A stretch of DNA of 48,900 nt from Rhodospirillales bacterium (GTDB taxonomy: Bacteria; Pseudomonadota; Alphaproteobacteria; Bin95): the NCBI GenBank assembly GCA_008081395.1, contig VMCJ01000040.1, positions 1 through 48,900 of the forward strand. The letters are read 5' to 3'. Position numbers and translations under genes: made by a program. Within the stretch, counting starts at the first letter, position 1; the number at the start of each line of letters is the position of its first letter. This document shows positions 1-48,900 of this stretch, piece after piece. The notes below the pieces were generated by a model. It was not told the DNA's origin. It did not search any database and saw only the letters and a program-made list of their open reading frames with translations.

Positions 1-829
1 GCTTCTGAAATGGCATAACATCATATGTCAAGATATTACGGACAAAAGCTTGCTGCGTTTCATCAAGACGATTGAGCCACTGCTTCGACGCTCCAATCCA
101 ATAATAATCCCCGACAATGCCGTTCAAGCCGGCGATCGTGAAAAATGGCGCTTGATCCTTCGTGGTGTTAAACCCACCAAGAGATGTCAAAAGACCATCA
201 ATAACACCAGTCTGGAGTGCCGGAGGAACATCACCGAACGCCATAGTGGTTGGGTTTGAACCAAGAGCAGCAAGCAGAGCATTCTCAGCTGGTCCCATGG
301 AACGAATCTTCTTTCCTTGGAAATCCTCTGGCTTCATCAAGCGGCTTCCAGACCCTGCTCCCATGTACATGGATAAGTGTCCAGCAGCAAAAACTTCGAT
401 ATCGTGAACTTTATCAAAGCGATCTATTAAGAATTTATATGTTGAGGTAGTCTCAAGACCATTAATTGCCCCTGCTGTAGTCAGTAGTTGAGGCCCAACG
501 ACAAGGTTCATGTAGGGATCTACAGCTGCGGTTTTACCGAACTGACCCCAGGTCATTTCAAGGTTGCCCTCTGTCATTGCCTCAACAGCTTCTGGAATGC
601 GATAAAGCGCTCCAGCAAAATAAAGCCGAACCTCACTTCCAGGCACGAGAGCTTCGAGCCTTTCTTTGAAGTAAGTCATTGCAATTCCAGCCGGATGAGG
701 TGGTCCGGTCAGGTCCGCCGCGATACGGATTGTCATTGGCTTTACGTCGGCCGTTGCAGCCGAAGCGCCAAACACCGTCAGTGCGGCGGCGGCAACTGCA
801 GAAAGCAGGCCTTTTTTGCCAAACTGCAT
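1..829 (-). CDS. dctP: TRAP transporter substrate-binding protein, DctP family (C-terminus cut by window edge)
   Basis: Reverse-strand reading from ATG at 829 gives MQFGKKGLLSAVAAAALTVFGASAATADVKPMTIRIAADLTGPPHPAGIAMTYFKERLEALVPGSEVRLYFAG...; signal peptide and DctP-like body; GGGAG RBS upstream. The ORF track missed it because it runs off the edge. Confidence 0.85.
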   Translation of the reverse strand, partial: MQFGKKGLLSAVAAAALTVFGASAATADVKPMTIRIAADLTGPPHPAGIAMTYFKERLEALVPGSEVRLYFAGALYRIPEAVEAMTEGNLEMTWGQFGKTAAVDPYMNLVVGPQLLTTAGAINGLETTSTYKFLIDRFDKVHDIEVFAAGHLSMYMGAGSGSRLMKPEDFQGKKIRSMGPAENALLAALGSNPTTMAFGDVPPALQTGVIDGLLTSLGGFNTTKDQAPFFTIAGLNGIVGDYYWIGASKQWLNRLDETQQAFVRNILTYDVMPFQK

Positions 830-42118: not shown

Positions 42119-43243
42119 CTAGTTTGTCTGTGCAATCAGCTCATCCAAACTACGGTGAAAATTACAAATAACCTGTTCATATTTTCCAAAAGTGAAATAT
42201 TCATTAGCCTCACTAGAAATGCCGTCCTGGATACTTTTTGCGGCTGCTCGGTCTTCAAGCAGCCCAGTGTCCTGTACAAAGTTGGCATCGCGTCGAGCAA
42301 TCTCTAAACTTTCTTCGGTGGCCGCCTCCCCTTCATTTGTTAATTGATAAACCACCCAGCGTGTTGATGTCGGAGTCAGAGGCTCCAAAATTATAAAAAG
42401 GGTGTGGTTAGACAAGACTGACGTATGAGCGTGGGGAAAGATTTGAAACACTTGGGTGAATCGTCCTGCATAGTTCCGATCCTCTGGTAACTTTTCTCTG
42501 AGTCTCTCTATTCTATTGAACGGGAACACGATCAGCGCATTTCGCTTATACAGCTCTATTATGTTTAAATTATCATACCCGTAGGGATAGAATGATTTAT
42601 TGTGTAGTGCCCGTATGTGGTACCCTTCCATTGAGGTTTCACCGATAAGCTTCCAATTTGCCTCGTCAACAAACTCCAGCGAGTTAAAAACCTTCTGTTC
42701 GGGCTTTATAATTTCTGGAAGGCACTCAAGAGCACCATCAGAAACCGGCTTTTCTTGCGTAACAAAAACGATACCAGATTTTTCTTCAGCGGTTACTGCA
42801 ACCAGTCCATGGCTTTCCTTGTCAACTGACGGAAATCCCTCAAAGCCAGGGATGTGCTTAAGCGCACCATCCAAACTATAAGTCCAAGCGTGATACGGAC
42901 AAACAAAGCTCTTAGCGCAGCCTGAACCTTCTTTTAGCGCCATTCCTCTATGCCTACATGCATTACGAAATGCCCGCACAACACCATCGTCACCACGGAC
43001 GACCAGCAGGGGCGTCCCGGCAGCCGCTCGCGCGATGTAAGACCCAGCCTCAGGTAAGGCCGCCGAAGGACAGAAGGGCAGAGGGATGCGGCGCATCATT
43101 TTTAACTCTGCCTGAAAACGCTCCATAGACTGATAATTCTCAACTGGCTCCCGCCAAATTCCTTCGCCAACATCAGTTGTTTTATTATCGACATGCCTAA
43201 TAACCCGTTCGTAAATTTCCTGCGGGGTCGGTAATTTCGCCAT
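42119..43243 (-). CDS. Rieske aromatic ring-hydroxylating dioxygenase alpha subunit (alpha')
   Basis: ACRHRGMALKEGSGCAKSFVCPYHAWTYSLDG Rieske motif; catalytic region NWKLIGETSMEGYHIRALH; start set at MAKLPTPQEIYERV. Confidence 0.92.
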   Translation of the reverse strand: MAKLPTPQEIYERVIRHVDNKTTDVGEGIWREPVENYQSMERFQAELKMMRRIPLPFCPSAALPEAGSYIARAAAGTPLLVVRGDDGVVRAFRNACRHRGMALKEGSGCAKSFVCPYHAWTYSLDGALKHIPGFEGFPSVDKESHGLVAVTAEEKSGIVFVTQEKPVSDGALECLPEIIKPEQKVFNSLEFVDEANWKLIGETSMEGYHIRALHNKSFYPYGYDNLNIIELYKRNALIVFPFNRIERLREKLPEDRNYAGRFTQVFQIFPHAHTSVLSNHTLFIILEPLTPTSTRWVVYQLTNEGEAATEESLEIARRDANFVQDTGLLEDRAAAKSIQDGISSEANEYFTFGKYEQVICNFHRSLDELIAQTN

Positions 43244-43253
43244 TATAAACTCT

Positions 43254-43769
43254 TCACACATTATAAATGTCGATTGGTATATCGACGCGGTCATTTAAAA
43301 AAGTGATATGCTTACGCGCAATTTTTAAATCGCCGTTTTCATGACGGCTGAACGTGTAATCATAACGACCACCATGAATGCGAGCTCCCTTCCTGTCACC
43401 GTATTGATGCACAGTCCAGCTGCAGGAAGCTTCTATAGTGGTCTCAGAAGCTGCTATCAGCAAAACATTACCAACCACATGGGTACTCCTAGGCATCGGT
43501 GTAGAGGCGTAACTATCACGAGTGTTGATACGATAAACTCTATCATCCAAGCCTGTCTTATTATGAAAATAGATAAGGAAGAGCTCCTTAGTTGGGTCGG
43601 TAGCAAGAGTTGTTTCGTTAATCCATGCGGGAATTAGGTACTCGGCATCTTCACTGTACAAGTTTAGCCACTCATCAAATCGGCGCATATCGAGCAAGTA
43701 CGCTTCTCTGTAGATCAGCTGCTCAACTTCATGCTGCAAGCAAAGATCCGCGTTAGTAACGTTACTCAT
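43254..43769 (-). CDS. Aromatic ring-hydroxylating dioxygenase beta subunit
   Basis: EVEQLIYREAYLLDMRRFDEWLNLYSEDAEYLIPAW; RINTRDSYASTPMPRSTHVVGNVLL; 171 aa. Confidence 0.9.
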   Translation of the reverse strand: MSNVTNADLCLQHEVEQLIYREAYLLDMRRFDEWLNLYSEDAEYLIPAWINETTLATDPTKELFLIYFHNKTGLDDRVYRINTRDSYASTPMPRSTHVVGNVLLIAASETTIEASCSWTVHQYGDRKGARIHGGRYDYTFSRHENGDLKIARKHITFLNDRVDIPIDIYNV

Positions 43770-45097
43770 TTATCCGCAGCCATTAGTTCGGCCCAACGGC
43801 GATATTGCCCAATATAAATTGTTTCCATATCCCAAGGTTTATTGTGGCCTTTCGGCTCGATCTTAAGTTCACGAATGTCTTTATCAGCTCCAACGCCAGC
43901 AGAGGCTATGCCTCGATCAAACGGGGACCACTTGGCGAGCTTGCCCCCAACACCAGTCTGAGTATCCTCTAGTGCAACGGAGTCATCCGGGGTAGCAAGC
44001 CCACTTGTCAAAAAGAAATCTCGGAATTTGTCCAGTCGGGCTCGTCGAGCTTCGGAACTCTCACCTTTAGGCGCTATACAAAATACTTGTATTTCTGTTC
44101 TGCTGGGACCCAAAGGTCGGATAATTCTGATTTGTGTTGATGACTGGTCCATTAAAAATACGTTTGGATAGATGAGCAAATTACGTCCACGCCCCACCAT
44201 CCAATTCCATTTTTCCTCACCAACTGTCGGAAGCAGTTTATCCCTCGCTTCGTATAATGGCGCTGCTTCGGGAGCTCCTCGATCCGACCAAATAACATTA
44301 TGTCCGCGACCTAAGTCATAACATCCAGTTTCAACATTACCCGAGTCAAAACGAGCATTTTCGGTCAGTTTCATTCCGGAAGCATTATTCAGTTCATTTC
44401 TACGTCTAACTGTTTGTGCAAAATTACGATGCACAACTCCTACATGATAGCCATCGACACCGTTTTCTATTTGTAGCTTCCAGTTACATTCAACAATGTA
44501 TGTTGAAGATCCTGGCAGCACCTCTAATCCATCAGGCGATTGGTCTGCCATCATATCAATGAAAGGTTTGGTATTATCTAAATGCTCTGAGAGCGGAGGC
44601 ACTTCTGCGTTAAGACTTGCAAAAATAAACCCTCTGTAATTCTCAACTCGTGGCAGTCGCGTAAGACTAAAGCACGATTTATCAACACCATTAGGATAGC
44701 CTATCTCTTCATCCTTAATGCGAATGCAATCACCATCAGACTTAAATGTCCAACCGTGGTAACGGCAAACAAAAACACGAGCGTTGCCTTGTCGGGTTGG
44801 TGTAAGAAGCGCTCCCCTATGAGAACATGCGTTAATAAGGCCACCAATTTCGCCATTATCCAGACGGTTAATTATTACGGGTTGGCGCCCAATTTCTGTC
44901 CAGAGATAATCCCCCTGCTTTGGTATTTGACTTTCATGGGCGACATAAATCCAGGTCTTCTCGAATATTAGGGATATCTCGTCTTCGAAAATGCCTGGGT
45001 CATCGTAAATGGACCGATTGATGCTAAAATTACCGTCAGCTGTCCGGTCATCGACCATGCTAGAATAGTCTAATGTAGATCGACGCATGTCTGGCAT
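43766..45097 (-). CDS. Rieske aromatic ring-hydroxylating dioxygenase alpha subunit
   Basis: ACSHRGALLTPTRQGNARVFVCRYHGWTFKSDGDC; CNWKLQIENGVDGYHVGVVHRNF (DxxHx4H iron site); ATG overlaps nothing upstream; GGAGGC RBS. Confidence 0.94.
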   Translation of the reverse strand: MPDMRRSTLDYSSMVDDRTADGNFSINRSIYDDPGIFEDEISLIFEKTWIYVAHESQIPKQGDYLWTEIGRQPVIINRLDNGEIGGLINACSHRGALLTPTRQGNARVFVCRYHGWTFKSDGDCIRIKDEEIGYPNGVDKSCFSLTRLPRVENYRGFIFASLNAEVPPLSEHLDNTKPFIDMMADQSPDGLEVLPGSSTYIVECNWKLQIENGVDGYHVGVVHRNFAQTVRRRNELNNASGMKLTENARFDSGNVETGCYDLGRGHNVIWSDRGAPEAAPLYEARDKLLPTVGEEKWNWMVGRGRNLLIYPNVFLMDQSSTQIRIIRPLGPSRTEIQVFCIAPKGESSEARRARLDKFRDFFLTSGLATPDDSVALEDTQTGVGGKLAKWSPFDRGIASAGVGADKDIRELKIEPKGHNKPWDMETIYIGQYRRWAELMAADK

Positions 45098-45186: not shown

Positions 45187-46368
45187 ATGGCCGAAGACAC
45201 AACCTGGCTAGTAACTCCCGTTGGCCAACGCGCAGATGGCAGCTGGATTACCGACGTGCTTGCCGAAAGAGCTAGAGAAAATGGACTTCTATGGCGTTAT
45301 GCGGAGGCCACTAACTTTTCCAGGGAACGAATAGAAGTAGTTCGCGGCTTAACTGTTGATCAGTTGAAGGAGTTGTACTACCGGCGCGGTTGGACAGATG
45401 GCTTACCTATCATCCTACCCACCAGATCTCGCGTCAGAACTTTTCTACGCCATGCAAAACAAAGTGGCGATAAACATATTGGAGAGGCGGAACCTCTCTT
45501 TGGACAGGTTACGATGGAAAAAGCGGCTGCCAATGCGGTAATGGCTGGCTGTGATCCAAAACACTTTTGTTTTGTCATTGCGGCACTGGAAGCAGTTCTC
45601 GAGCCTTCTTTTAACCTTCGTGGCGTTCAAACGACCGACGAGAATGTGACGCCACTTCTCTTGCTTTCAGGGCCAGATTTAGAGCGCTTAGATCTTCATG
45701 GAGGTGTAGGTGCTTTGGGACCTGGCTGGCGAGGAAATATGGTTATCGGCCGAGCTCTTCGGCTCGCAATTCAGAACATTGGGGGAGGGTGGCCCGGGAC
45801 CACAAATCTGGCTGGCCTTGGCCAACCGGGCCGCCTATCGCTTGTTCTGCCAGAAAATGAAACTGATTCTCCTTGGCCGAGCTTGAGGGAACGGCTTGGT
45901 TATTGCGAGAATGACACACTTCTTATGGCTCTGCGAGCTGAAGCAACTGTTACGTGCACGGGTAGGATAGATGACCTAGGAAGCTTGCTGCGTTCCTCTC
46001 TATCAGCTTTCAGTCGCCTGCATGGAGGAACATGTGCCGTAGCTATTGCTCCATTTATTGCTCAGACATTGGCCCAAGATGGTTGGACGGAGCAGGATGT
46101 TAGAAAACACCTCTGGCAACTATCTCATGCCGATCCGGAAGAATATAATCGAAGTTGGATTATGAAGGATCTTCAACCACGAACGGGGATAGCAGATTGG
46201 GCAATTGCAGCCCTGAAAGCAGGGAATGGACCACCTGCTGTAGAAACACCAGACCATATTGTTCTTGTCGTTTCAGGAGCAAACGCGGCAATTCCACAAC
46301 ACGCGTACTTCCCAACTTGGGGATTTCCTGAAGCTCGAATCACAAAAAAGATTCAACGGATCGATTGA
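45187..46368 (+). CDS. Conserved-looking protein of unknown function (393 aa)
   Basis: Full-length ORF with good coding character: AAANAVMAGCDPKHFCFVIAALEAVLEPSFNLRGVQTTDENVTPLLLLSGPD...GALGPGWRGNMVIGRALRLAIQNIGGGWPGTTNLAGLGQPGRLSLVLPENE. I do not recognise a characterised family. Confidence 0.75.
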   Translation: MAEDTTWLVTPVGQRADGSWITDVLAERARENGLLWRYAEATNFSRERIEVVRGLTVDQLKELYYRRGWTDGLPIILPTRSRVRTFLRHAKQSGDKHIGEAEPLFGQVTMEKAAANAVMAGCDPKHFCFVIAALEAVLEPSFNLRGVQTTDENVTPLLLLSGPDLERLDLHGGVGALGPGWRGNMVIGRALRLAIQNIGGGWPGTTNLAGLGQPGRLSLVLPENETDSPWPSLRERLGYCENDTLLMALRAEATVTCTGRIDDLGSLLRSSLSAFSRLHGGTCAVAIAPFIAQTLAQDGWTEQDVRKHLWQLSHADPEEYNRSWIMKDLQPRTGIADWAIAALKAGNGPPAVETPDHIVLVVSGANAAIPQHAYFPTWGFPEARITKKIQRID

Positions 46369-46479
46369 TATCTTCGACGCTATCAAAATGCGTTTTGAAA
46401 CTGATAGACGTAAGCCACAGTTTGCCCTAATTTCTGGATCATCGCATCCGAAGGGCGGGTGCTTAGTTGGATACCCTCA

Positions 46480-47634
46480 ATGCGTTATCTAATTTCTTGC
46501 TTATTGGCAGTTATAACTTTCTCCTTATCCATTACGCCCACAATCGCACAGCAGCGTGGAAATCGCCCTCCTCCAACCCTCGTTGGAGACCAAATACGGC
46601 AAGAAACAGCTAGCGAAACAACGGCAATCGTAGGGCGCTTTGTATCAACGCGGAGTGGGCCCATAGCCACCCGAGTTGCTGGTGCTATTGATAATGTTTT
46701 GGTCGAAGTGGGAGACAGAGTTAAAGCTGGGCAAATTATTGCCGAGCTAGCAACTGATCGGTTGTCAGCGGAGGTCCAGCGTCGGAAAGCGTTATTAGAG
46801 CTCAGCAACGCCCGCATTAAAACAGCTAAGGCATCTCTAAAGCTTGCGGAACAATCATTAAATCGCCTAGAGCGACTTCGGAACTCAGCTGCCTTTTCTG
46901 AGGCTTTGCTTGCGGACAAACAACGAGAGGTGGAGAGATCGGCAGCGCAGGTAAAAGAAGTAGAAGCAGACAACGCCCGCGCCCTTGCTGAGCTAAAATT
47001 AGCCCAGGTTGATTTAGATTATAGTCAAGTTAAAGCGCCCTACCCGGGCGTCGTAGCTGAAAGGCACGTGGAAATTGGCGGATTTGTAGGACTGGGCGCT
47101 CCTATTGTTACCCTGATTGGGGACAAGGCACTTGAGATTGAAGCAGAGGCTCCAACAGACCGCATGGGTGGAGTACAACCCGGTGCTACTGCATCTGTTA
47201 TGTTGGGCGCTGCCTCGAGTTCAATAAAAGTCCGAGCTGTATTGCCTCGCGAAACCGGTGTATCCCGCACTCGCACTGTGCGCTTTGGACCGCTACCCGC
47301 AGAGTTGGAAAAGTTAGCCATCGCAAATGCTGCAGTAACAATTCATATACCAATAGCCGCCCCTGAAACGGTCGTCACGATCCACAAGGATGCGATAATT
47401 CGTCGACCTGCAGGCGCAGTTGCGGTATTCGCCAAGCCTGACCAAGAACAAGAGGGGCTATTCAAAGCCGAAATCAAGTCAGTCGACTTAGGCTCTGCTG
47501 TTGGGCGTCGTTTTATATTGAAGGAAGGGGCCTCGCCTGGCGATATAGCAGTGATCCGAGGCAATGAAACGCTTCGCCCCAATCAAGCATTCAAACTCGT
47601 TGGCAACCAGCCTACAGGAATGTCCAAACGATGA
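46480..47634 (+). CDS. Efflux RND transporter periplasmic adaptor subunit
   Basis: Signal peptide MRYLISCLLAVITFSLSITPTIAQ; IDNVLVEVGDRVKAGQIIAELATDRLSAEVQRRKALLELSNARIKTAKASLKLAEQ; DLDYSQVKAPYPGVVAERHVEIGGFVGLGAPIVTL. Confidence 0.93.
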   Translation: MRYLISCLLAVITFSLSITPTIAQQRGNRPPPTLVGDQIRQETASETTAIVGRFVSTRSGPIATRVAGAIDNVLVEVGDRVKAGQIIAELATDRLSAEVQRRKALLELSNARIKTAKASLKLAEQSLNRLERLRNSAAFSEALLADKQREVERSAAQVKEVEADNARALAELKLAQVDLDYSQVKAPYPGVVAERHVEIGGFVGLGAPIVTLIGDKALEIEAEAPTDRMGGVQPGATASVMLGAASSSIKVRAVLPRETGVSRTRTVRFGPLPAELEKLAIANAAVTIHIPIAAPETVVTIHKDAIIRRPAGAVAVFAKPDQEQEGLFKAEIKSVDLGSAVGRRFILKEGASPGDIAVIRGNETLRPNQAFKLVGNQPTGMSKR

Positions 47635-48806
47635 ACCTCATCCGTGCTGCGATCGAACGGCCTGTCGCCACAGTTTCGGCTGTTCTGATGATCGTTCTAT
47701 TTGGAGGGCTTGCTCTAACGACAATCCCAATCCAGCTAATTCCTGAGGTCAATAAACCTCAAGTTACGGTTCAAACCTTATGGCCCGGAGCTGCCCCCGC
47801 AGAAGTGGAGCGGGAGATAGTCAATCGTCAGGAAGAAGTCCTCCGTGGTGTCGAAAATCTCGAAAATATGGAGAGTCAGTCCAGTACTGGAAGGGCTCGT
47901 GTAAAACTTACATTTGCCGTTGGCACAGATATGGATAAGTCACTGTTGCTAGTTGCAAATCGACTCGATCGGGTTAACGGTTATCCAGAGGAAGCCGATG
48001 AACCTACGCTTAAGACGGCGAGTTCTGACGACAATGCTATTGCATGGTTCTCCATTCAACGTCTCCCAGGGAATGAGAAACCAATCCACACATATCGAGA
48101 TTTTGTGGAAGATTTTGTCCAAGACCGATTTGAACGTGTGCCTGGAGTTGCTTTAACCAACCTTTATGGTGGGGGAAGTCGCGAACTCCAAATAATCATA
48201 GATCCTGAAAAACTTGCACAATACCGCCTCACGATCAGTGAAGTTGTAAATCGTATTCGCACAGAGCATGCCTCCTTCTCAGCAGGAGAGTTAGACGAAG
48301 GAAAACGAAGTTATGTAACGCGCATGGAAGGCAACTTAGATCGCCCTTCAGCCGTGGAAGACGTTGTTTTGAGATCTGAAGTTGACAGATCTACAGGAGC
48401 TGTTTCGCGCGTAACCGTTCGAGATATCGCCAAGGTTGAATTTGGTTATTCCGAACCCACAGCACGGATTAGAAGAAATGGCGCCCCAGGTATTGCTGTA
48501 AATGCTGTTCGTGAAACCGGGGCTAATGTCATCAAAGTGATGGAAGGCTTAAGAGAGGCGACCGCCGATCTAAATGATACTGTGCTTAAGCAGAACGGCC
48601 TGACTATCAAACAAGTATATGATGAGACAGTTTATATAGAGTCAGCCATTGATCTGGTGCAATCCAACATAATCATCGGTGGCTTATTAGCCTCTTTGGT
48701 ACTTCTGTTGTTTCTTCGCTCATGGAGACCAACCGTAATCGTTGCGATTGCTATCCCTGTATCCGTAATTGGCTCTTTCGTAGCCATGGCAGCGCTTGGG
48801 CGCTCA
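47631..48806 (+). CDS. Efflux RND transporter permease (AcrB/HAE family), N-terminal part only; homology ends at about 48806
   Basis: MNLIRAAIERPVATVSAVLMIVLFGGLALTTIPIQLIPEVNKPQVTVQTLWPGAAPAEVEREIVNRQEEVLRGVENLENMES...IIIGGLLASLVLLLFLRSWRPTVIVAIAIPVSVIGSFVAMAALGRS; ATGA overlap with adaptor gene. Confidence 0.93.
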
Positions 48807-48900
48807 CCCGTCCCCATCCAGACCCAGAACGGGCCGAGCACCATCTCCAGCAACATGAACAGGCTGACAATGGTGGGGCTGGTATGGCGCGGTGCCAGTG
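48790..48900 (-). CDS. Fragment of an EamA/DMT-family transporter (C-terminal repeat), both ends lost
   Basis: Reverse-strand translation LAPRHTSPTIVSLFMLLEMVLGPFWVWMGTGERPSAA matches the EamA helix pattern (SLFMLLE.VLGP.WVW...GE.PS); sequence is visibly more GC-rich than the preceding RND gene. Confidence 0.65.

Follow-up and report, generated by a model that had tools for sequence, protein, structure and literature searches.

A contig end that joins an RND pump gene to an antisense EamA transporter fragment is very probably an inter-organism assembly chimera

Introduction

Why does a gene that begins as an ordinary RND efflux permease turn, a short distance before the sequence stops, into a fragment of an unrelated transporter read from the opposite strand? 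The stretch of DNA in which this occurs, hereafter the window, is 48,900 nucleotides long and comes from the draft genome of a Rhodospirillales bacterium (2.57 Mb, 176 contigs, 96% complete), hereafter the host. An earlier note on this sequence had proposed that the switch is an assembly chimera and had named a genuine inversion or deletion as the alternative. The window spans the whole of its contig (C6, 1-48900), so the junction lies where the contig itself stops, which the earlier note, made from the letters only, did not know. The opposite end also cuts a gene, where window positions 1-829 (- strand) hold an open ORF of 276 aa that by eye resembles a TRAP-type solute-binding protein.

Paths that correspond to no real genome can arise in de Bruijn assembly, and the chimeric sequence of one mock community lay at contig ends in every case (PMC8172020). 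Joins across organisms have been described as rare, and as recognisable by a lack of paired reads, by coverage or by phylogenetic profile (PMC7111523).

Results

The features of the contig end, with the evidence for each, are as follows.

46459..47634, + strand: RND membrane-fusion (HlyD-type) subunit gene, genuine host (Pfam HlyD_3 1.3e-13, HlyD_D23 3e-13)
47631..48805, + strand: RND efflux permease, N-terminal ~392 residues, genuine host, cut at the junction (ACR_tran, homology of relatives)
48785..48805, no strand: 21-bp joining stretch CATGGCAGCGCTTGGGCGCTC, which fits both genes (per-segment identities)
48806..48900, - strand: foreign tail, EamA/DMT-family transporter fragment, running to the physical contig end (DNA identity, GC)

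We compared the pump ORF (47631-48899, + strand) with protein profiles and with the same gene in other genomes, and both comparisons break at the same place. The ACR_tran profile (PF00873) matches residues 4-392 with E=1.4e-88, covering only profile positions 2-382 of 1021; the ORF thus gives no full-length match (~1020 positions), as the junction cuts it. The ORF was matched in 142 of the 143 genomes searched, host included, and in the close relatives the protein alignments extend over residues 1-393 with none going beyond, which bears out the earlier claim that the + strand reads as an RND permease only up to the junction. Over these residues the protein is 95% identical to that of the same-genus genome G002, 78-81% identical to those of the other three genomes of the genus (G001, G003 and G004) and 62-65% identical within the family, and the DNA similarity of the gene to its relatives likewise stops at about 48805 (48805/6). 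G002 encodes a complete permease of 1068 aa that continues as ...AMAALGRS-INVISLAGIAFAVGMVVD past the junction point, so that the host part amounts to about 37% of a protein of ~1068 aa. All four relatives in the genus (G001 to G004) carry the gene beyond this point, with frames of 1069-1085 aa in three and a frame cut by the contig end in the fourth. The RND/anti-EamA junction, sought in these homologous genomes, is absent from all four.

The neighbourhood of the pump gene is also that of the genus. The HlyD-type gene at 46459-47634 lies directly upstream of the permease, as does its G002 counterpart (L066 1346-2500), and the two genes preceding the G002 permease have their equivalents in window ORFs 45187-46368 and 46459-47634. 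The first of these (+ strand, 393 aa) has its counterpart at L066 49-1230 in a conserved neighbourhood. Beside this operon, at 42119-45097 on the - strand, translations read by eye show two ORFs like the large subunits of Rieske-type ring-hydroxylating dioxygenases, clustered with an ORF like a small subunit. Downstream the picture changes, as searches of the host bin for the two thirds that the pump gene lacks and for the gene that comes next in G002, an ORF labelled FAD-dependent oxidoreductase-like from its sequence only, returned no orthologue of either, with only 25-31% matches. The absence of both from the bin indicates that the host assembly has a gap here, which is expected where an assembler lost its path.

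One way to read the end of the contig is as a true, divergent continuation of the permease with no junction at all, and the + frame does stay open up to the last bases. Beyond residue 392, however, relatives read as SINV-type sequence, and not one of them aligns to the tail; a match in the + frame would have removed the claim of a switch entirely. The residues beyond the junction, PVPIQTQNGPST..., have no expected match, the closest relative reading S-INVISLAGIAFAVGMVVD there, in line with the earlier observation that they are unlike an RND protein. The opposite strand, moreover, is 90-91% identical in DNA to EamA genes. This DNA match refutes a divergent continuation, and we regard its probability as practically nil.

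The tail, which is antisense to the pump gene, was identified as EamA by DNA and protein comparison. It holds only about 38 EamA residues, and Pfam and NCBIfam scans of its 43- and 88-residue peptides, which are too short for this purpose, gave no match. With the 88-residue antisense ORF as query, a scan of the genome collection found relatives in two metagenome-assembled genomes (MAGs): Rhodospirillaceae bacterium PL36323bin_1 (L098) is 91% identical in DNA to window 48785-48898 over 114 bases, and Alphaproteobacteria bacterium MOX_bin66 (L099) is 90% identical over the same 114 bases, each with E about 1e-40, which is far more than chance would give. The minus-strand reading, LAPRHTSPTIVSLFMLLEMVLGPFWVWMGTGERPSAAM, differs from the L098 protein by one mismatch (N for I) in 38 residues, giving 37/38 identical, and the full-length L098 protein is itself an EamA transporter by Pfam (PF00892, E=3.8e-15). 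The EamA signature that the earlier note had read on the minus strand is thus confirmed. Its suggestion that base composition be compared also proved informative, as GC is 63% in the last 95 bases vs 48% in the window; the L098 and L099 MAGs have GC of 60-62%.

A third MAG, Alphaproteobacteria bacterium WB5_5_028, matches the tail exactly. Specifically, its contig RFZL01000071.1 (L138) shows 100% DNA identity to 48852-48900, a stretch of 49 bases (L138 2999-3047) that corresponds to bases 1-49 of RFZL01000071.1, where that contig cuts its own EamA gene. An exact match covers 49 of the tail's 95 bases, at which point RFZL01000071.1 ends. An overlap of this kind, with 49 bases common to the ends of two organisms' contigs, would be seen between neighbours in a single assembly graph. 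Because the identity is 100% over 49 contig-end bases, the tail probably belongs to the species of WB5_5_028 or to a very near one, as judged from sequence. Our literature search found no paper that names the WB5_5_028 MAG. Matches to plasmid pTM3 of Tistrella mobilis, in a record without annotation, and to a plasmid of Rhizobium sp. CB3090, inside a cation diffusion facilitator gene, were rejected as sources of the tail since they are weak (38-55 bases at 84-87%), and a scan of viral contigs gave no relative of the tail.

The two sides of the junction thus come from different organisms, the pump side being 95% identical in protein to same-genus G002 and the tail 90-91% identical in DNA to other alphaproteobacterial MAGs, and they meet in a stretch that suits both. 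CATGGCAGCGCTTGGGCGCTC reads MAALGRS of the pump on the + strand and ERPSAAM of the EamA protein on the - strand, and its identities are 17-19/21 to the RND relatives and 18-19/21 to the EamA genes of L098 and L099, with one of the two homologies collapsing on either side of 48785-48805. The earlier estimate of ~20 shared bp is accordingly refined to 21 bp, an upper bound set by homologues rather than by the true source sequences. CATGGCAGCGCTTGGGCGCTC occurs once in the host genome. A word of 21 bases is close to the lower limit of the k values that multi-k assemblers commonly apply.

A rearrangement inside the host genome, in which an inversion or deletion joined one of its own EamA genes to the pump gene, could draw on many such genes, as the genome has 37 EamA domain matches. 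The tail DNA, however, is found nowhere else in this genome, its GC is 15 points off, and the full EamA protein finds at best 28% protein identity in the host outside the tail and at most 36% over its full length in the host genus and family. As the tail has no source in the host genome, an intragenomic inversion or deletion, the alternative raised in the earlier note, is disfavoured, and we consider it extremely unlikely. Three further host contigs also end within EamA genes (C10, 13-162; C38, 26-406; C176, 3-314), and contig breaks inside EamA genes seem frequent in this genome. We considered these ends and several internal host EamA genes as partners of the tail and rejected them, as none has a DNA match to it.

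A real recombination with foreign DNA would require that an EamA-bearing alphaproteobacterial fragment was acquired and inserted in reverse at a microhomology of about 21 bp, disrupting the pump gene in this strain specifically. Microhomology-mediated joins do occur in nature, and an assembled sequence by itself cannot tell rearrangement from error. Against such an event, contig and tail break off together after only 95 bases of the tail, and the final 49 of these are the same, base for base, as the contig end of another MAG. No other genome of the genus has the tail, and reading the sequence at the junction showed no sign of a mobile element. We therefore give this event a slight chance, and its route, transfer followed by illegitimate recombination into the RND gene, is very unlikely.

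Discussion

The end of this contig is, with high confidence, an assembly chimera between two organisms rather than a biological feature. This reading is favoured by the foreign GC of the tail, by the lack of such an EamA gene in the host genome and genus, by its DNA identity of 90-91% to sequence in other organisms, by the 49 bp that it shares exactly with the contig end of another organism, by the 21-bp word that both sources seem to share and by the position at a contig end. The proposal of the earlier note is thus strongly supported. We infer that both organisms were present in the same sample and that the assembler acted as follows. The host permease gene is genuine up to about 48805, where an assembler using short words may have followed the 21-base stretch that the pump gene has in common with an EamA gene from a co-sampled alphaproteobacterium; it would then have run about 95 bases into the opposite strand of the EamA gene and stopped. 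The correct host gene would instead be expected to go on as SINVISLAGIAFAVGMVVD-like sequence.

The junction resembles the chimeric contigs of short-read metagenomes (PMC8172020, PMC7111523) in that two organisms are joined, at what looks like a short shared word, at a contig end, with phylogenetic profile and GC both changing abruptly there, although here it was recognised from sequence and not from reads. Each half is like a known transporter and yet incomplete. The host part matches an RND efflux permease (ACR_tran, PF00873) over its first 392 residues and has a membrane-fusion gene directly upstream, but it lacks the remaining two thirds at the contig end. The tail is like an EamA/DMT transporter (PF00892), sharing 37/38 residues with an EamA-family protein that a Rhodospirillaceae MAG encodes, but unlike a complete one it has only about 38 residues, placed antisense to the pump gene.

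The significance of this finding is one of data quality only. The last 95-116 bases of the contig should be left out of use, and neither the 423-residue 'RND protein' nor the 88-residue antisense ORF that gene callers would report belongs in databases as a fusion protein. Even without reads, a chimera of about 100 bases at a contig end can be recognised from homology, GC and an overlap of about k-mer size.
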